Shown one piece after another: positions 22,318 to 30,598 of a DNA stretch of 35,582 bases. Source of the stretch: an uncultured Gammaproteobacteria bacterium (GTDB taxonomy: Bacteria > Pseudomonadota > Gammaproteobacteria > Steroidobacterales > Woeseiaceae); NCBI GenBank assembly GCA_913063505.1, contig CAJXYT010000011.1, positions 1 to 35,582 on the forward strand. The letters run 5' to 3'. Made by a program: the position numbers and the translations under genes. The notes beneath the pieces are model-generated. The model had not been told where the DNA came from. It worked only from the letters and a program-made list of their open reading frames with translations, and did no database searches. The stretch's first letter is position 1. Each line of letters opens with the position of its first letter.

Positions 22318-22374
22318 GGATACTCCTTAAAGTTCTTTAATATTGCAGTTAATTACAAATGAAGAGGGATGCAG

Positions 22375-22391
22375 TGTATTAGTTGAATACA
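22375..22391. promoter_or_regulatory. Inverted repeat upstream of TonB operon
   Basis: TGTATT (22375-22380) and AATACA (22386-22391) are exact reverse complements with a 5-base spacer, 58 to 74 bases upstream of the DUF3450 start. The size and symmetry suit a dimeric repressor site in the TonB operon promoter. No regulator can be named, and it does not look like a Fur box. Confidence 0.35.
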
Positions 22392-22807
22392 TGCACAAAT
22401 GAAAGCCGACGATAAAGATCGCATCACCAAGTGCGCACGCGACCCTCTCCACCTTCGCCGCGCGGCTATAAACTATTGGAACCCCTACTACCTCTATATT
22501 CGTTGGCACACTCAGAGTTTCCTAGTGAGTGTTTCTGCCGTTTATTCCTTCTTGTATCGAAAGGTCCCCGTGACACCGGGGCGAAGAATAACACATGATC
22601 TACATATCGCCAGCCCAACATCTACATAACTTTTAGGACTCGCGAATTTGACTTTAAGCGCCAACTTAGGGGGGTGCTGCGCGCCTCCTGTATAGCCAAA
22701 ATGTGCGTAAAAGTACTAAGGCTTTTTTATCCTGTATTGGGGTGTATATATAAGGTATCAAAGAAAAAGCTCCAAGGATTCGAATAATTATTGTTATTTT
22801 AGTGCTT

Positions 22808-22832
22808 TATGATGGAAAGTTAATCCATCATA
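22808..22832. promoter_or_regulatory. 25-base operator-like palindrome upstream of ilv-leu promoter
   Basis: TATGATGGA (22808-22816) and TCCATCATA (22824-22832) are exact reverse complements with a 7-base spacer. It lies 33 bases upstream of the -35 box of the ilvC-leu promoter, a position suited to an activator or to a site shared with the divergent operon. The protein that would bind is unknown. Confidence 0.45.
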
Positions 22833-22864
22833 TTTAGTAACACGTGTAACCGATTAAGCAACGG

Positions 22865-22893
22865 TTGACATCGTTATTTTCTTACAACATGAT
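22865..22893 (+). promoter_or_regulatory. Promoter of the ilvC-leuACDB operon
   Basis: A perfect -35 hexamer TTGACA (22865-22870), 17 bases, then CATGAT (22888-22893, four of six matches to TATAAT). The predicted start of transcription is about 22900-22901, which coincides with the ATG of the leader peptide. Prediction by eye only. Confidence 0.55.
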
Positions 22894-22900
22894 TCGCGTC

Positions 22901-22975
22901 ATGACTGTAACGCAATGCAAAAACTTGCTCGTGCTTCGACTTTCTTTGCTCCTTCTTGAGAGGCAAAGCGGGTAG
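22901..22975 (+). CDS. leuL: Leucine-rich leader peptide of the ilv-leu attenuator
   Basis: A 24-codon open frame from ATG 22901 to TAG 22973-22975 encodes a peptide with 8 Leu and 2 Val; the run NLLVLRLSLLLL is the diagnostic part. It lies directly upstream of a strong terminator and the ilvC-leu operon, so it should be a regulatory leader peptide whose translation senses charged tRNA-Leu (and perhaps tRNA-Val). An in-frame ATG at 22889 would extend it to 28 residues, but that lies in the predicted -10 box. No ribosome-binding site is visible before either start. If transcription starts at 22901 the message would be leaderless. The Leu codons used are TTG, CTC and CTT, never CTG. Confidence 0.8.
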   Translation: MTVTQCKNLLVLRLSLLLLERQSG

Positions 22976-23036
22976 CGCGCATCCGGTCATCGGACAACGT
23001 AAACCCCGCATCCAAAAGGATAGTGGGGTTTTTTTT
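22945..23036 (+). promoter_or_regulatory. Leu attenuator: pause stem, antiterminator and terminator
   Basis: Three mutually dependent structures can be drawn. Stem 1:2: TTTGCTC (22945-22951) with GAG..CAAA (22958-22967), which overlaps the last Leu codons. Stem 2:3: GCGGGT (22968-22973) with ACCCCGC (23003-23009), 6 bp and one bulge. Stem 3:4: the terminator, AACCCCGCATCC (23002-23013) with GGAT-A-GTGGGGTT (23018-23030), loop AAAA, followed by eight T (23029-23036). A ribosome stalled on the Leu codons covers segment 1, frees segment 2 and prevents the terminator. This is classical ribosome-mediated attenuation. The terminator is certain; the 2:3 pairing is short and hand-drawn. Confidence 0.8.
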
Positions 23037-23066
23037 ATCTTCGCATTAAGGTTTTAGGAATTCACC

Positions 23067-24053
23067 ATGCAGATGTACTCAGAAGCAGATGTTGATATTT
23101 CATGCCTGGCTAATCGCCAGGTCACCGTGCTGGGCTACGGCAGCCAGGGTCGCGCTCACGCACTGAACCTCAAGGACAGCGGTTTCAATGTCGTCGTAGG
23201 CCTGAGGCCCAGTGGAGCCAGTTGGGCAATAGCGGAAGCTGACGGCTTAACCGTTCAGGAACCGAGCGACGCGGTTAAAGGCGCCGCTGTTGTCATGTTC
23301 CTGACGCCAGATATGGTTCAAAAGAGCCTATATCAGTCCGTTGAGGGCGATATCGACCAAGGTGCGATGCTAATGTTTGCGCACGGATTGGCCATTCATT
23401 ACAAGCAGATCGAACCGCGTGCAGATTTGGACGTTTCTTTAATAGCCCCTAAGGGGCCGGGTGGGCTGGTTCGCAGGCAGTATGAAGAGGGACACGGCGT
23501 TCCTTGTCTCGTTGCGGTGCATCAGGATGCCAGCGGCAATGCACTGAATATCGCTCTTGCCTATGCAGCCGGAATTGGGGGCGCCCGAGCAGGTGTAATT
23601 AAGACTACATTCGCAGAAGAAACAGAAACCGACTTATTCGGCGAGCAGGCCGTTCTGTGTGGTGGCGCGACGGAATTAATTGTGGCGGGATTTGAAACCT
23701 TAGTCGAAGCGGGTTACCAGCCAGAAGTTGCGTACTATGAAGTCATGCATGAGTTGAAACTGATCGTTGATCTGCTTCACGAAGGTGGTCTACGCAAGAT
23801 GCATAAGTTCATTAGTGACACGGCAGCCTGGGGCGATATGATCAGTGGCCCGCGCGTCGTGGGGGATACATCCCGTGCCGCAATGAAAGCTATCTTGACA
23901 GACATCCAGGACGGTACATTCGCTCGCACTTGGATCGCAGAGAATGAGAACGGCATGCCTGAATTCAAGCGCTTAATGCAGGCTGATCTTGTTCATCCGA
24001 TTGAAAAGGTTGGCGCTGATCTGCGCGGTCGTATGGATTGGCTGGAAGAGTAA
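23067..24053 (+). CDS. ilvC: Ketol-acid reductoisomerase
   Basis: A 328-residue class I acetohydroxyacid isomeroreductase, the second step of Val and Ile synthesis and source of the keto acid for Leu. Seen: nucleotide motif GYGSQG (23-28), catalytic H106 (FAHG), K129 (APKGPG), metal ligands D189 and E193 (DLFGEQ), E225 and E229 (YYEVMHELK) and substrate Ser250. The family's usual 'TAEYGD' reads TAAWGD here. Overall it follows the Xanthomonas-type sequence. AGGA (23056-23059) lies 7 bases before the ATG. It is first in the ilvC-leuA-leuC-leuD-leuB operon, behind the Leu attenuator. Acetohydroxyacid synthase genes (ilvG/M or ilvB/N) are not in the window. Confidence 0.95.
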
Positions 24054-24083: not shown

Positions 24084-25661
24084 ATGCCTGACAATCTCTC
24101 AGAGAACCAGATACGCATTTTTGACACCACGTTACGTGATGGGGAGCAAGCCCCAGGCTGCAGCATGACGCTCAGTGAGAAACTACGTGTCGCAAAAGCG
24201 CTATCAGAGCTAAACGTCGACATCATTGAGGCCGGTTTTCCCGCTGCATCGCCGGGTGATTTCGAATCCGTGAAAGCCATTGCGGATCGAAATTTTGGCC
24301 CGGTGATTTGCGGTCTTGCGCGGTGTAACGCCGCTGATATTGAGAGGGTCCACGCTGCGGTTAAGGGCGCCGATAATCATCGTATCCACGTATTTGTAGC
24401 GACCAGCGCGATCCATCGCGAGTACAAACTCAAGATGGCTAAAGATGAAATAATAAAGAGCGCTGTTGGAGCAATAAAAATCGCTCGGGAGCTCTGTGAC
24501 GATGTCGAATTTTCGCCGGAAGACGCGTCACGAACAGAGTTGTCGTATCTAGCAGAGGTGGTGTCGGCAGCGATTGAAGCAGGCGCGAGCACAGTGAATA
24601 TTCCTGACACCGTGGGCTACACGGTTCCGGCAGAGTTCAATCGCTTGTTCTGCTACCTCAAAGAGCATGTCGCTCGAATCAACGAGATCACACTCAGCGT
24701 ACATTGTCATAACGACTTGGGTATGGCCGTTGCAAATAGCCTTGCTGCTGTCGGTGCAGGTGCACGTCAAATCGAATGCACAATCAATGGTATTGGTGAG
24801 CGAGCCGGAAATTGTAGTCTTGAAGAAGCCGTTATGGCGATCAAGACGCGCTCAGAATTTTTCGGAGTCTGCACCAAGATAGACACGACCCGCCTGTACC
24901 CTACTTCAAGGTTGGTTTCGAATATCACGGGCATGCACCCTCCTCGCAACAAAGCGATCGTTGGTGAGAATGCATTCTCACACGAAGCGGGTATACATCA
25001 GCACGGTATGCTGCAACATGCATCAACCTACGAAATCATGCGTCCAGAGGATGTCGGCCTGAGTCACTCAAATCTGATTCTCGGTAAACACAGCGGCCGG
25101 CATGCATTTCGGGATCGCGCAAAGGAGTTAGGTTTCGAGCTCGACGACTTTGAAATCAATCGAGCGTTTCAGGATTTCAAGAAACTTGCGGACAAGAAAA
25201 AGGATATCTATGACGGTGATATTGAATCGATTATCATGAATGCCAGCGGTTCGGCTTCCGGACCATGGTCTCTTAAGTCTCTGGAAATTCAAACCCATAC
25301 AGATCAACCCGCGACAGCGACAGTAACTCTTGTAGGTGAAGACGGGGTTGATGTCTCTGAGTCGGCGCACGGTGATGGTCCTGTCGCTGCTGCACTTCAG
25401 GCTTTGGAGCGCGCGACTGGTGTCGACATGATTTTGCTAAACTTCGAGCTACACAGTGCCTCGAGCGGTGAGGACGCTCAAGGTGAAGTGACCGTCACTG
25501 TGGAAATCAACGGCCAAATTTTTCGTGGCCGCGGTGCAAGCGTCGACATTGTCGAGGCTGGTTGTCGCGCTGGCCTTGAGGTTATGAATCGTACACTCCG
25601 TCGCAGAGCGCGTGGCGAAACGAACGCTGATAGCACCCAGTCAGCGCACGCAACTATTTAA
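24084..25661 (+). CDS. leuA: 2-Isopropylmalate synthase
   Basis: A 525-residue LeuA, the committed step of Leu synthesis (acetyl-CoA plus 2-ketoisovalerate). The TIM-barrel part has [12 protein letters not shown] (14-25) with catalytic R18 and D19 and the metal-binding HCHND (207-211). The NGIGERAGN loop and the [13 protein letters not shown] and GKHSGRHAF motifs follow. The C-terminal third is the LeuA dimer regulatory domain that gives feedback inhibition by Leu. Length is normal. GGAG (24072-24075) precedes the ATG by 8 bases; the gene follows ilvC by 30 bases. Its product pathway continues with leuCD and leuB. Confidence 0.97.
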
Positions 25662-25686
25662 TTTCAATTTACTTTGGATTTTAAAC

Positions 25687-27087
25687 GTGAGTAGCAAAAG
25701 AACCCTCTTCCAGAAGGTATGGGATGACCATATCGTAGTTGCAGAATCGCCAGAGACACCCGCAATTCTCTACATCGATTTACATATTGTTCATGAGGTC
25801 ACCACGCCCCAAGCGTTCTCGGTACTTCGGGAGTTCGGCCTACCCGTGCGTAGGCCTGACCTGACATTACCAACACTGGATCACTCGACTCCGACTACTC
25901 CCGTATCTTCATACGAAGACCTCCTGGTGGCGGGTGTTAGTGCAGCCAATCAAGTTCGACAGATGGAGAAAAACTGCGAGGAATTCGGTCTCGACTTACT
26001 GGGCTACGGAAGTGGCAAGCGCGGCATCGTTCACGTCATAGGCCCAGAACTCGGCGCTACACAGCCTGGTAAGACCATTGTCTGCGGTGACAGTCATTCC
26101 AGTACTCATGGCGCGTTTGGGGCTCTTGCGTTTGGAATTGGTACCACCGAAGTCGGTCACGTTCTGGCCACTCAATGTTTGCTGCAGCGCGCCCCCAAGA
26201 CGCTCGAAGTCAATATAGAGGGCGAGCTTCCCGATGGCGTGACGGCCAAAGATCTAATTCTTGCTGTCATAGGCCAGATCGGCGTTAACGGCGGTACAGG
26301 CCACGTCATTGAATACCGCGGTAAAGCGATCGAGGCGCTCGATATGGACAGCCGGATGACGATTTGTAATATGTCGATTGAAGCCGGCGCCCGTGCAGGC
26401 ATGATTGCTCCAGACCAGATAACATTTGACTACCTTAAGGGTCGACCGAAATCACCAAAGGGAAGCGAGTGGGATGCGGCGGTGGAGCGTTGGAAGGAGT
26501 TGCGATCCGATGATGGCGCCGAGTTCGACAAATCGGTCACATTACATGCTGGTGATCTGAAACCGATGGTCACCTTCGGAACGAATCCCGGGATGGTCGT
26601 CGGTATTGACGAGCTTATTCCAAACGAAAATGGCGCCAGTTTCAAAAAAGCATTAAATTACATGCAAGTCGAACCTGGAAAGCCGATGACTGAAATCGCT
26701 GTGGACATAGTTTTCGTCGGCAGTTGTACTAATGGTCGACTTTCCGATATCAAAGAAATCGCCCGAATCCTGAGTGGCCGTCGGATTGCTGACGGTGTTC
26801 GAATGCTGGTGGTTCCAGGCTCTGAGCTCGTAAAGAGGGAAGCAGAAGATCGCGGCCTCGATAAGGTCATAACGGCCGCAGGCGCAGAGTGGCGCGAAGC
26901 AGGTTGCTCAATGTGTATTGCGATGAACGGTGACATAGTGAAACCGGGGCAACTTTGCGTCAGTACAAGCAATCGAAACTTCGAAGGCCGCCAAGGTGTC
27001 GGCGCCAGAACGGTATTAGCAAGCCCGGCAACCGCTGCCGCATCCGCTGTTACCGGTTATGTTTGCGACCCAAGGATCTTTTCATGA
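25687..27087 (+). CDS. leuC: 3-Isopropylmalate dehydratase large subunit
   Basis: A 466-residue LeuC, aconitase family. The [4Fe-4S] ligands are C347 (GSCTNGR), C407 and C410 (GCSMCIAMN), the same numbering as the E. coli enzyme. That agreement supports the GTG start at 25687; an open frame extends upstream to 25612 inside leuA, but those residues do not belong to the family. Other motifs: [21 protein letters not shown] and [10 protein letters not shown]. With LeuD it isomerises 2- to 3-isopropylmalate. The ribosome-binding site is weak. The stop overlaps the leuD ATG (ATGA). Confidence 0.96.
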
Positions 27088-27659
27088 ATCCCGTCAGACG
27101 AATTCAAGGACGGACTGTGGTTCTGCCCAACCGAGACATCGACACGGATCAAATTATCGCTGCTAGGTATCTCACAACAACGACTAAAGAAGGTCTTGGG
27201 CAACACGCTTTTCACGACCTTCGATTTGACAAGGATGGTAATGAAAACCCCGATTGCATATTGAATCAGCCGGCTGCGGTAGGATGTTCCATCTTAATTA
27301 GCGGCAATAATTTCGGTTGTGGCTCCTCTCGTGAGCATGCCCCATGGGCGCTGCTGGATTATGGCTTTGAGGCTGTAATTTCAACCGAGATAGCCGATAT
27401 TTTTTGTAATAACTCCCTTAAGAACGGCCTGGTGGCGATTGTAATTGATGCCCAAACGCACGAATGGCTGATTCAGAACCCGGGCAGCGAAATTGGAATT
27501 GATATCGCAGCTGGGACCGTTACGCTTTCAGGTGGTCGATCGGTCGATTTTGCGATGGATAGTTTTGCACGTCATTGCTTACTTGAGGGAATTGACCAAC
27601 TGGGTTTCTTGCAACAGCAGTCAGCCGCCATCGAAGCATTCGAGGAAAAACGAAATTGA
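27084..27659 (+). CDS. leuD: 3-Isopropylmalate dehydratase small subunit
   Basis: A 191-residue LeuD. The N-terminus [30 protein letters not shown] and the [22 protein letters not shown] motif are diagnostic of the swivelling small subunit. The ATG at 27084 overlaps the leuC stop; a longer frame open upstream lies within leuC and is not family sequence. The subunit combines with LeuC. The end overlaps leuB (TTGA). Confidence 0.96.
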
Positions 27660-28717
27660 AAGCCCAGATCACTCTATTGCCGGGAGACGGTATTGGCCCG
27701 GAAGTAACGGATAGCGCGCGAAACGTTCTTGATTCTGTTGCATCAAAATTTGGTCATGAATTTGTATACGATAGCCAGCTCATTGGTGGCGCAGCTATCG
27801 ATACAGAGGGTAATCCCTTGCCGTCAGCAACCATCACGAGTTGCAAGAATGCTGACGCAGTATTCCTGGGCGCAGTCGGCGGACCAAAATGGTCCGACCC
27901 GAACGCGACAGTTCGACCGGAACAAGGCCTGCTCGGCATTCGTTCTGTTTTGGGCGTTTACGCAAATATTCGGCCAGTAAAAATCTATTCTGAGCTTGTT
28001 GAAGCTTCCCCGCTTAAGCCCGAGATTCTTGAAGGCGTCGACATGATTGTCGTAAGAGAGCTTACTGGCGGCATCTACTTCGGCGAAAAAACTCGCGATG
28101 CAACTTCTGCAAGTGATCTTTGCACCTACACGGTGGCCGAAGTAGAACGAATCGTAAGGGTCGCAGCAAGACTCGCGTCTGGACGTCAAGGTAAGTTGTG
28201 TTCGGTCGATAAAGCCAATGTATTAGAGACATCGCGCCTGTGGCGAGATGTGACAGACCGGTTGATGGCGGCCGAATACCCTGAAATCGAAGTTGAGACA
28301 TTGCTGGTGGATGCGGCCGCGATGCATCTTCTGAGTAGACCGTCGGAATTCGACGTGATTGTTACTGAGAATATGTTCGGTGATATCCTGACTGATGAAG
28401 CCTCAATGTTGGCAGGATCGCTTGGAATGCTACCCTCCGCGTCGCTGGGCGACAGCAAGGTCGGACTTTACGAGCCTATCCATGGATCGGCGCCCGATAT
28501 CGCTGGACGGGGTCTCGCAAATCCCTGTGCGTCAATCGCCAGCGTTGCACTGCTCTTACGCCATAGCCTCGGACTGGAGCAAGAAGCAACGGCCGTTGAG
28601 CGCGCTATCGCACGCGCAATCGGTGCTGGAGCGAGAACTGCCGACATCGCCTCAGACGGCGAATCACGTGTCTCCACGAGCGAGATGACGGCGGAGATCG
28701 TGCACAGTCTGAACTAG
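27656..28717 (+). CDS. leuB: 3-Isopropylmalate dehydrogenase
   Basis: A 353-residue LeuB. Motifs: [12 protein letters not shown] at the N-terminus, LGAVGGPKW, the substrate region [28 protein letters not shown], the metal-binding [25 protein letters not shown] and the NAD-binding [12 protein letters not shown]. It oxidises and decarboxylates 3-isopropylmalate to 2-ketoisocaproate. The start is a TTG overlapping the leuD stop; LeuB proteins begin at exactly this point ([10 protein letters not shown]). The stop lies in CTAG shared with the stop of the convergent metB gene. Confidence 0.97.
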
Positions 28718-29922
28718 GCGTAAGCGGCCGCTAAGGGCGGCTGTATTTCAGATGCTTTTGCTGCCGTAAGAGCTGACAACAGGTCGTCAATCAAATCCTC
28801 GCTGCTCTCGATACCCACTGACAGTCGAATCAGGTTTTGCCCGATGCCCGCGATCGCCAGTGCTTCTTCACTGACTGGTGCGTGCGTCATTGTGGCAGGG
28901 TGGCAGACGAGACTCTCGACTCCACCAAGCGATTCTGCCAACGAGAAGTACTTAAGGCCTTCTACGAAGGCGCGAATTACCTCTTGCCCACCATCAAGCT
29001 CAAAACTCACCATTCCGCCAAATCCACGCTGCTGACGTTTGGCAATATCATGACCTGGGTGAGATTCGAGACCAGGGTAGTAAACACGGTTAACCTGCTC
29101 ATGATCATTCAGAACATTGGCAATCAGGCTGGCATTTTCCTCATGCTGCCGAATTCGAGGATGCAATGTACGAATGCCGCGCAGCGTTAGAAAGCTGTCA
29201 AAAGGCGCTCCTGTGACCCCAATACAATTGGCCCAGTAGGCTATTTTCTCGGCGAGTTCATCAGTCGCCGCTATCAGGCAGCCACCGACCACATCGCTGT
29301 GCCCATTTAAATACTTGGTGGTTGAGTGAATCACCAGATCAGCGCCAAACTCGATCGGGTTTTGCAGGGCTGGTGAAAGAAAGGTGTTGTCGACTGCGAA
29401 AAGAGCACCCACGTCGCCCGCAACAGCAGCGATTTTTTCAATATCGACAATTCGAAGTAGTGGATTGGACGGTGTTTCGGAGAGAACTATTTTTGGCCGG
29501 CACTGACAGGCATTGAAGAGCGCTTGCTCGTCAGTCTGATCCACGAAAATGACCTTGTACAGCCCCCTTTTCGATTGTTGCTCGAATAATCTATACGCAC
29601 CACCGTAACAGTCATGCGGTGCAATGATCGTGTCGCCTGGCTCAAGGAGTTGCGTCAGCAGCGTAAGTGCTGCCATGCCCGATGACGTCACTACAGCGCC
29701 CGCCCCGCCTTCCAGTTCTGCCATAGCATCCGCCAGCGCGTCACGCGTCGGATTGCCTGAGCGGGTGTAGTCATATTCCCGCTTTTCGCCAAATCCAGCG
29801 AAAGTAAAATTGGATGATAAGTGTAATGGCGGCACGACCGCGCCGTGCTGTGTGTCCGATTCCATGGACGCACGTACCGCTCTCGTCGCTTTGCTTGCCG
29901 GGGTGGTCATTTGGGTCTTCAC
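28714..29922 (-). CDS. metB: Cystathionine gamma-synthase (MetB type)
   Basis: A 402-residue PLP enzyme of the Cys/Met metabolism family. Features: [23 protein letters not shown] with Y106, [12 protein letters not shown] with D178, the PLP lysine K203 in [12 protein letters not shown], and [19 protein letters not shown]. The whole follows E. coli MetB closely, so it should join an activated homoserine (O-succinyl or O-acetyl) to Cys, or act as a direct sulfhydrylase; sequence alone does not separate these. GGAG (complement of 29929-29932) lies 6 bases before the GTG start, which decides against the ATG at 29910. It is a single-gene unit controlled by a SAM-I riboswitch upstream. Confidence 0.92.
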
Positions 29923-29932
29923 TTTAAGCTCC

Positions 29933-30057
29933 GTAGCTAATCAAACTTGCTCATCGGAACCCTGCGAAGCCCGCAAGGGAGGGGTACTGCCCTTCTCCCG
30001 CGGACGGGACGTTGCAGTTACCCTCATCATTCGATGCCCTCAAAAAACTGAGTAGAG
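29933..30057 (-). promoter_or_regulatory. metB leader: expression platform of the riboswitch
   Basis: About 125 bases between aptamer and ribosome-binding site. The first hairpin (CGATGC/GCATCG at 30032-30037 and 30057-30062, inner CTCA/TGAG) reuses the 3' half of aptamer stem P1, so the two exclude each other. Two further GC hairpins compete for the same GGG (29977-29979): GGGAG..GGG/CCC..CTCCC (29977-29999) and CCC.GCG/CGC..GGG (29960-29979). None is followed by a proper T-run, so control may be translational or Rho-dependent; I cannot tell which. Confidence 0.5.
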
Positions 30058-30149
30058 CATCGCAGGAGTTGGCACCTTTTCAGAATGGTTAGTTCTGAAG
30101 GTTGCCCCGGAGTCGTCGGGCCTATCCCTCGACCGGTCTCGATGAGTAG
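30058..30149 (-). ncRNA. SAM-I (S-box) riboswitch aptamer upstream of metB
   Basis: Read on the minus strand, the conserved SAM-I core is complete. P1 pairs CATCG (30140-30144) with CGATG (30058-30062). The kink-turn/pseudoknot region reads GAGGGATAGGCCCGACGA, then CCGGGGCAACC. P3 is a perfect 7-bp stem, TTCAGAA/TTCTGAA. The 3' core reads AAGGTGCCAACTCC. These segments match the S-box consensus (GAGGGA..GGCCC..GA, GGCAACC, GGTGC.AA.TCC) nearly base for base. Placement before metB is the expected regulon: high S-adenosylmethionine should repress methionine synthesis. Confidence 0.95.
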
Positions 30150-30292: not shown

Positions 30293-30598
30293 ATGAAGCC
30301 CAATCGAAACGAATCGAATCACCAGCAGCAGCGTGCCGAAGAGGCCCTTTTTAAAGCGATGGCGGTCTTGCAGAGCACCAAAGAGGTTCGAATTTTCCTC
30401 AAAGATCTATGCACGCCCGCTGAACTGCAGGCTTTGGTCGATCGATGGCAAGTCGTCGAATACCTTCAGAAAGAACTACCCTATAGAAAAATCCATGACC
30501 TTACGGGCGTTAGCGTTACCACGATCGGACGGGTCGCACGTTGCCTCGCGGACGGTGCCGGCGGCTACCGTGCGGCGATAGACATAATTTCTCACTAA
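30293..30598 (+). CDS. TrpR/YerC-YecD family DNA-binding regulator
   Basis: A 101-residue all-helical protein of the Trp-repressor superfamily, YerC/YecD branch. Seen: FLKDLCTPAELQALVDRWQVVEYLQ (35-59) and a helix-turn-helix YRKIHDLTGVSVTTIGRVARCL (64-85), followed by the GGYRAAI tail typical of YerC-like proteins. It lies 10 bases upstream of hisG in the same direction. YerC-type proteins have been proposed as histidine-responsive repressors in other bacteria; the context here supports that role. No His-rich leader peptide is present, in keeping with repressor control. The ATG start has only a poor ribosome-binding site. The ligand is not determined; tryptophan-binding cannot be excluded. 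Confidence 0.88.
   Translation: MKPNRNESNHQQQRAEEALFKAMAVLQSTKEVRIFLKDLCTPAELQALVDRWQVVEYLQKELPYRKIHDLTGVSVTTIGRVARCLADGAGGYRAAIDIISH

Follow-up and report, generated by a model that had tools for sequence, protein, structure and literature searches.

Leader-peptide attenuators of leu and ilv genes have long been known in Gammaproteobacteria, leuL and ilvL of Escherichia coli being examples, and a survey of the proteobacterial leu and ilv attenuators was reportedly given by Vitreschak et al. in 2004. In textbook attenuation, the leader peptide starts from a Shine–Dalgarno sequence. According to the extracts available of the respective reports, the transcriptional start of the Corynebacterium glutamicum ilvBNC attenuator and the start codon of its leader are one nucleotide apart and the mRNA is leaderless (PMC11857589), and the attenuator RNA of Sinorhizobium meliloti trpL, rnTrpL, has the leader-peptide ATG at its very start (PMC7298713). 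In Salmonella Typhimurium, 33 leaderless mRNAs, whose 5′ end by definition coincides with the start codon or precedes it by no more than 6 nt, were mapped; 16 of them have +1 at the A of the AUG and 17 start 1–6 nt before the AUG, without a Shine–Dalgarno sequence (PMC3293720). Because of this set, leaderless mRNA as such is already known in Gammaproteobacteria (PMC3293720).

Organization of the ilvC-leuACDB locus and its probable attenuator

The window, i.e. the whole stretch of 35,582 nucleotides analysed here, belongs to an incomplete assembly of 1.45 Mb whose nearest named relatives are MAGs of the Woeseiaceae, a marine bacterial family. On the plus strand it carries, in this order, a Leu-rich leader frame, a terminator and the genes ilvC (ketol-acid reductoisomerase, 23067–24053), leuA (2-isopropylmalate synthase, 24084–25661), leuC (isopropylmalate dehydratase large subunit, 25612–27087), leuD (isopropylmalate dehydratase small subunit, 27075–27659) and leuB (3-isopropylmalate dehydrogenase, 27656–28717). 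All five matched their NCBIfam profiles above cut-off (TIGR00465, TIGR00973, TIGR00170, TIGR00171 and TIGR00169 respectively); the leuC coordinates are those of the longest frame, with the profile match beginning at residue 29, and those of leuD are of the frame as scanned, matched from residue 4. A Shine–Dalgarno sequence of ilvC, AGGA, was read from the sequence at 23056–23059; with three duplicates counted in, 29 of 38 Woeseiaceae loci have an SD-like 4-mer ahead of ilvC itself. Since most genes of the operon are leu genes, a mainly Leu leader fits this operon.

Downstream of the operon, a SAM riboswitch (RF00162, 77.5 bits, 30021–30148, minus strand) is located upstream of a cystathionine gamma-synthase-like gene (28714–29922, minus strand), an S-box in a gammaproteobacterium. 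It was the sole Rfam match at gathering score in the whole window, where no amino-acid leader family such as Leu_leader was detected. A YerC/YecD gene of the TrpR family (30293–30598) stands directly ahead of a hisG-like gene (hisG by eye) and is possibly a local his regulator in place of a His attenuator.

All features of the attenuator and its promoter described in the following lie on the plus strand. The leader peptide frame, MTVTQCKNLLVLRLSLLLLERQSG, comprises 24 codons from the ATG at 22901 to the TAG at 22973–22975 (22901–22975), as delimited by sequence and family comparison. The putative regulatory codons are found at codons 9 to 19 (22925–22957), where eight Leu codons (4 CTT, 2 CTC and 2 TTG) and one Val codon were counted. 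CTT makes up 140 of 338 Leu codons in 46 Woeseiaceae leaders compared with 34 of 156 in the operon of the window; as the pause stem constrains these codons, no conclusion is drawn from this bias.

The initial annotation had proposed that this Leu-rich frame is followed by a pause stem, an antiterminator and an eight-T terminator ahead of ilvC-leuACDB, and had suggested folding of the RNA from 22901 to 23040 as a check. This RNA folded with −46.9 kcal/mol (z = −3.0), a stability reached by 4 of 200 shuffles, and sequence, folding and alignment confirmed each of the proposed elements. The alignment (A1) comprised 35 distinct Woeseiaceae ilvC upstream regions, the window included, and covered the Leu run through to the T-run. 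It was drawn from 36 regions anchored on GCGGGTA, which is present in all 36; L050, in whose stretch the T-run was not found, was left out. Twenty regions fetched later are outside A1, and at least one of these, L124, deviates from the antiterminator core by eye.

The pause or anti-antiterminator hairpin (1:2; 22944–22968) overlaps the Leu codons; 81.1% of its cells were paired in the 35 sequences, and its covariation barely exceeded that of shuffles. The 5′ strand of the antiterminator, GCGGGTAGCGCG (22968–22979; as GCGGG-TAG-CGCGC, 22968–22980), contains the leader stop codon, and its 3′ strand, ACGTAAACCCCGC (22997–23009), is shared with the 5′ arm of the terminator. The 5-bp core GCGGG:CCCGC was identical in 35 of 35 aligned Woeseiaceae and, because it never varies, covariation provides neither a test of the antiterminator nor support for it. 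The invariant sequences of A1 are the leader GCGGG, which contains the last Gly codon and is directly followed by the stop codon, and the CCCCGC of the terminator. RNA 22968–23017, ending before the 3′ arm of the terminator, folded as the antiterminator with −16.6 kcal/mol; once the 3′ arm was included the terminator formed, even with the 5′ part omitted as if masked. The intrinsic terminator (23002–23036) consists of a hairpin at 23002–23030 and a run of eight T at 23029–23036. As a simple terminator pattern scan of the region found none, the hairpin there having a bulge, the terminator was assessed by folding and alignment. Its cells were paired to 97.9% over the 35 Woeseiaceae, a percentage matched by none of 500 shuffles, and two pairs are altered on both sides. 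The RNAalifold consensus of A1 displaced the pause stem and placed a local GCG:CGC hairpin within the antiterminator strand; structures of our own definition were counted instead.

Both the Leu run and the terminator, on whose conservation in relatives the attenuator had been made to depend, are conserved among Woeseiaceae. A constitutive terminator or a small-RNA gene with a Leu-rich frame arising by chance would agree with the Rfam search of 22800–23080, which gave no leader family at gathering score or as a weak match, the only weak match being anti-hemB (E = 0.49, under its gathering score). Such an origin is extremely improbable, as the Leu-rich frame, the antiterminator core and the terminator are jointly conserved in the 35 aligned sequences ahead of a Leu pathway operon, and LLVLVLI-type runs occur in the ilvC leaders of the Stenotrophomonas family. 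The predicted structures are laid out like those of a classical Leu transcription attenuator. As the stop codon is inside the antiterminator strand, this strand would be masked by a ribosome that has reached the stop, but not by one held up in the Leu run. This geometry is classical, and the part of the ribosome in it is what we infer.

Distance between promoter and leader start in Woeseiaceae

Sequence and promoter scan revealed a −35 hexamer TTGACA (22865–22870) and, 17 nt past it, a −10 hexamer CATGAT (22888–22893). With 10 of 12 consensus bases, TTGACA-17-CATGAT is the top one of three promoter-like matches in 22318–23066 (shuffle mean 1.9), the intergenic region before ilvC having a length of approximately 750 nt. 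The gap between the −10 hexamer and the leader ATG at 22901 is 7 nt. As +1 is usually located about 6–8 nt past −10, a 5′ untranslated region of 0 to approximately 3 nt is predicted. In the case of an 8-nt discriminator, which is the commonest one, transcription could begin at the G that stands three bases ahead of the AUG.

For comparison, 51 distinct Woeseiaceae promoters were obtained with the pattern TTGAC[AT]-17-[CG]ATN[ACG]T from 59 loci, after subtraction of six duplicates and of two loci without a match, L025, whose contig starts at the leader, and L129. These promoters were chosen by pattern, and conservation of the hexamers among them is by construction. The first ATG or GTG in any frame, searched 5–13 nt past −10, occurred at 6 nt in 6, at 7 nt in 10 and at 8 nt in 32 promoters (48 of 51 at 6–8 nt); the remaining three had a start at 10 nt, at 13 nt and nowhere within 5–13 nt, respectively. 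The frame from this first start was open for at least 20 amino acids in 49 of 50 sequences and had a mean of 7.2 Leu; the means of the two remaining frames were 0.56 and 1.0. Openness alone proves little because one of the non-leader frames was also open for at least 20 amino acids in 39 of 50; it is the Leu content that discriminates. Likewise, high bits at the start codon itself are no evidence, the profile having been built from rows with ATG or GTG at 5–13 nt, and what counts as evidence is where the start lies and how much Leu its frame encodes. Leader peptides are 20–36 amino acids long (L124 excepted), and their codons 3–13 are nearly unconserved, with at most 0.6 bit per position, which indicates that leader sequences diverged while the position of the start stayed. 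Poor fits within the family are L122, with no start up to 13 nt, L124, whose first start at 13 nt opens just four codons, and L129 mentioned above.

This conservation could have another cause. The ATG next to the promoter might belong to a DNA-binding site or to the discriminator, and translation might really begin farther inside, at a TTG or CTG that precedes the Leu run; close relatives do indeed show good conservation between −10 and the ATG, and most leaders contain internal GTG, TTG or CTG codons. A DNA site would need no frame, but the frame from the ATG is kept in all sequences except one, with variable length. Moreover, the bases directly ahead of the start vary (0.4–0.9 bit), and in L024 and L126 GTG takes the place of ATG, as for a start codon. 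We therefore regard a start at an internal codon as very unlikely.

The Leu attenuator might also be transcribed into an ordinary leadered mRNA from a different upstream promoter, with 30S initiation at 22901 or at a second in-frame ATG at 22889, which overlaps the −10 hexamer of the window. The long intergenic region offers other weak promoter-like matches for this, and in sister lineages leaders do start farther from −10 (see below). Against it stands the rank of TTGACA-17-CATGAT as the top match of the region. An upstream +1 would not require a start held 6–8 nt from −10 while peptide length varies, and an SD-like 4-mer was found in the DNA from −18 to −4 before the leader start in 0 of 50 Woeseiaceae. 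An ATG overlapping −10 is in frame with the leader in only 7 of 50 sequences, and ATG 22889 is therefore unlikely as the leader start. Altogether, a leadered mRNA has a small chance of being correct. The spacing in Woeseiaceae and in some relatives supports a predicted +1 at, or up to approximately 3 nt from, the leader ATG 22901, i.e. the leaderless arrangement that the initial annotation had advanced together with the missing ribosome-binding site; the latter was borne out in the 50 sequences.

Upstream of the −35 hexamer, the 51 promoters share a further element with the consensus TTTaGTAaCACa.GTAACTGA (22833–22853 in the window). Its positions, −31 to −13 of the −35 hexamer, mostly reach 0.7–1.5 bits, a few 0.2–0.4, and the block contains a pair of GTAAC direct repeats whose starts are separated by 9 nt. 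It is a putative regulator site for the ilvC promoter, a function that we consider likely or at least possible. The promoters of L022, L026 and L027 have G+C-rich 8-nt discriminators ahead of the start, such as GCGCCACT; to our mind these resemble stringently controlled rRNA promoters, which one would not expect in front of amino-acid biosynthesis genes.

Leader starts beyond the Woeseiaceae

To the Woeseiaceae loci, 80 upstream regions fetched across the host order were added. Altogether 188 ilvC upstream regions were examined, of which 96 distinct rows with a Leu/Ile/Val-rich stretch in the leader and a recognisable terminator were kept; 83 failed because attenuator, promoter or start was unrecognised by the script, and nine duplicates were dropped. 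The distance from −10 to the start was two-humped, with 64 rows at 2–10 nt (near), none at 11–17 nt and 32 at 18 nt or more (far). The 46 Woeseiaceae rows were all at 6–10 nt, and the other 50 were divided into 18 near and 32 far. L154 and L070 are doubtful rows; L177 has a GTG at 2 nt and an ATG at 26 nt and was entered as far in the tree described below, and L164 and L183 have a GTG at 18–19 nt and an ATG at 27–28 nt. Leaders of the sister lineages start 18–69 nt past −10, and an SD-like 4-mer was present in only 5 of 30 far leaders (L070 and L154 removed before the count), so that far is not simply equal to Shine–Dalgarno. That these leaders mostly have no clear Shine–Dalgarno sequence either is part of the case for the leadered mRNA considered above.

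A quick, single-protein IlvC tree was calculated for 83 rows (48 near, 35 far), including L043, L044, L060, L122, L124, L132, L133 and L168, which the script had missed and which were labelled by eye. The fewest changes between near and far on this tree were six, compared with approximately 27 with shuffled labels, and its well-supported branches force at least two. Lineages have thus probably switched their initiation mode.

In the family of a Stenotrophomonas genome, 27 of 40 genomes have a recognisable IlvC. A leader and a promoter were found in nine of the 27, all nine with the start at 7–9 nt and with weak −10 matches, and in 17 the script found no leader; in L247 a leader was found with a promoter below threshold, the layout being alike by eye. 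The operon of this family presumably has a gene order of wider branched-chain scope, which would fit its mixed Leu/Val/Ile runs. G037, a genome of another family, has a Leu leader, MNVVAPSPASRLTGSLPVQGVLAGLLLLSRSRCGLSG, with a terminator (L236:107–330) and an ATG 7 nt past −10. What it precedes is not ilvC but a threonine dehydratase-like gene, behind which lies a LeuA-like frame (names by eye). Outside the Woeseiaceae, the presumed homology of the attenuators rests on position and design, and many of the relatives compared are MAGs. From these comparisons, the sister lineages appear to have a genuine 5′ untranslated region, and the leaderless arrangement appears to be a conserved gammaproteobacterial form.

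Additionally, whole genomes were searched for a consensus promoter with an ATG 6–8 nt past −10. This pattern occurred 93 times in 36 genomes, compared with 21 for the reversed control pattern. For 23 genomes of the host genus the numbers were 79 and 10, and about 20 of the 79 were the ilvC leader by eye. The incomplete genome of the window had two against none, and G092 of the same family showed no excess (two and two). Leaderless starts may thus form a conserved minority class in the host genus. Recurrent starts of this type were seen there at the loci L238, L242 (G000:C57), L239 and L240; the genes of recurrent cases, by resemblance, we take to be a cobalamin adenosyltransferase-like gene, a TetR-like regulator and a sigma-factor-like gene. 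The TetR-like case has a palindrome, CAGAAT..ATTCTG, between −35 and the ATG.

Proposed mechanism and relation to known attenuators

At the sequence level, the frame, its Leu run, the spacing of promoter and start, the antiterminator core and the terminator are conserved. It is likely that they constitute a ribosome-mediated, Leu-sensing attenuator of ilvC-leuACDB whose leader is translated from a leaderless mRNA with a 5′ untranslated region of 0 to about 3 nt. The course of events that we infer, including the precise 5′ end, leader translation, ribosome stalling and regulation by Leu, is as follows. RNA polymerase would initiate at or beside the leader AUG, and a ribosome would load on the bare 5′ end. 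When Leu-tRNA is scarce, the ribosome would stall in the Leu run and cover the pause hairpin; GCGGG (22968–22972) would be free to pair with CCCGC (23005–23009), the terminator would be blocked and ilvC-leuACDB would be transcribed. When Leu-tRNA is ample, the ribosome would reach the UAG inside the antiterminator strand and mask it, the terminator would form and transcription would end at the T-run.

A more tentative proposal, to which we give clearly less than an even chance, is that the leaderless start is itself regulatory. Loading at a naked 5′ AUG as the RNA leaves RNA polymerase might lock leader translation to the start of transcription and make it dependent on the pool able to start on leaderless mRNAs, so that the operon would sense the condition of the ribosome pool in addition to Leu-tRNA. 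The ilvC attenuators of the order would then exist in two discrete modes, leaderless or with a 5′ untranslated region of at least about 12 nt, and lineages would move from one to the other while largely avoiding intermediate lengths. The ilvC attenuators of one order, which appear to be leaderless in some lineages and leadered in others, represent a natural experiment on ribosome loading, and the mode of loading could bear on the timing of attenuation and on basal read-through.

That attenuation of leu genes was already known in Gammaproteobacteria, as the initial annotation noted, is beyond dispute. Its view that the leaderless layout is unusual holds in part. In the open-access literature, covered mostly as titles and listings, we recognised nothing that describes a gammaproteobacterial attenuator with a leaderless leader peptide. 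Nor did its listings show a recognised report on attenuation in Woeseiaceae or 5′-end maps of Xanthomonas or Stenotrophomonas. In a wider sense the layout is not without precedent, as S. meliloti trpL (PMC7298713), C. glutamicum ilvBNC (PMC11857589) and the 33 Salmonella mRNAs (PMC3293720) have been published. The Salmonella set names regulators, membrane proteins and others, and no attenuator leader peptide is among those named in the extract available (PMC3293720). Judged from sequence comparison, the new part appears to be a conserved leaderless attenuator leader in Gammaproteobacteria that have sister lineages with a 5′ untranslated region.

With attenuators of the E. coli leuL/ilvL type, the locus described here shares the run of Leu codons, the pause hairpin and the mutually exclusive antiterminator and terminator ahead of a biosynthetic operon. 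It differs in a leader that starts at, or at most about 3 nt from, the predicted +1 and has no Shine–Dalgarno sequence, in a mainly Leu leader in spite of ilvC being the first gene, and in a stop codon within the antiterminator strand. The attenuator of C. glutamicum also combines control by branched-chain amino acids with a leaderless leader, but it belongs to an actinobacterium, precedes ilvBNC rather than ilvC-leuACDB and has a 15-amino-acid Ile/Val/Leu leader (PMC11857589). S. meliloti trpL shares the leaderless leader mRNA and is proteobacterial, but it comes from an alphaproteobacterium and responds to Trp rather than Leu (PMC7298713). The ilvC leader of the Woeseiaceae would add a gammaproteobacterial attenuator leader to a leaderless class known from an actinobacterium and an alphaproteobacterium.
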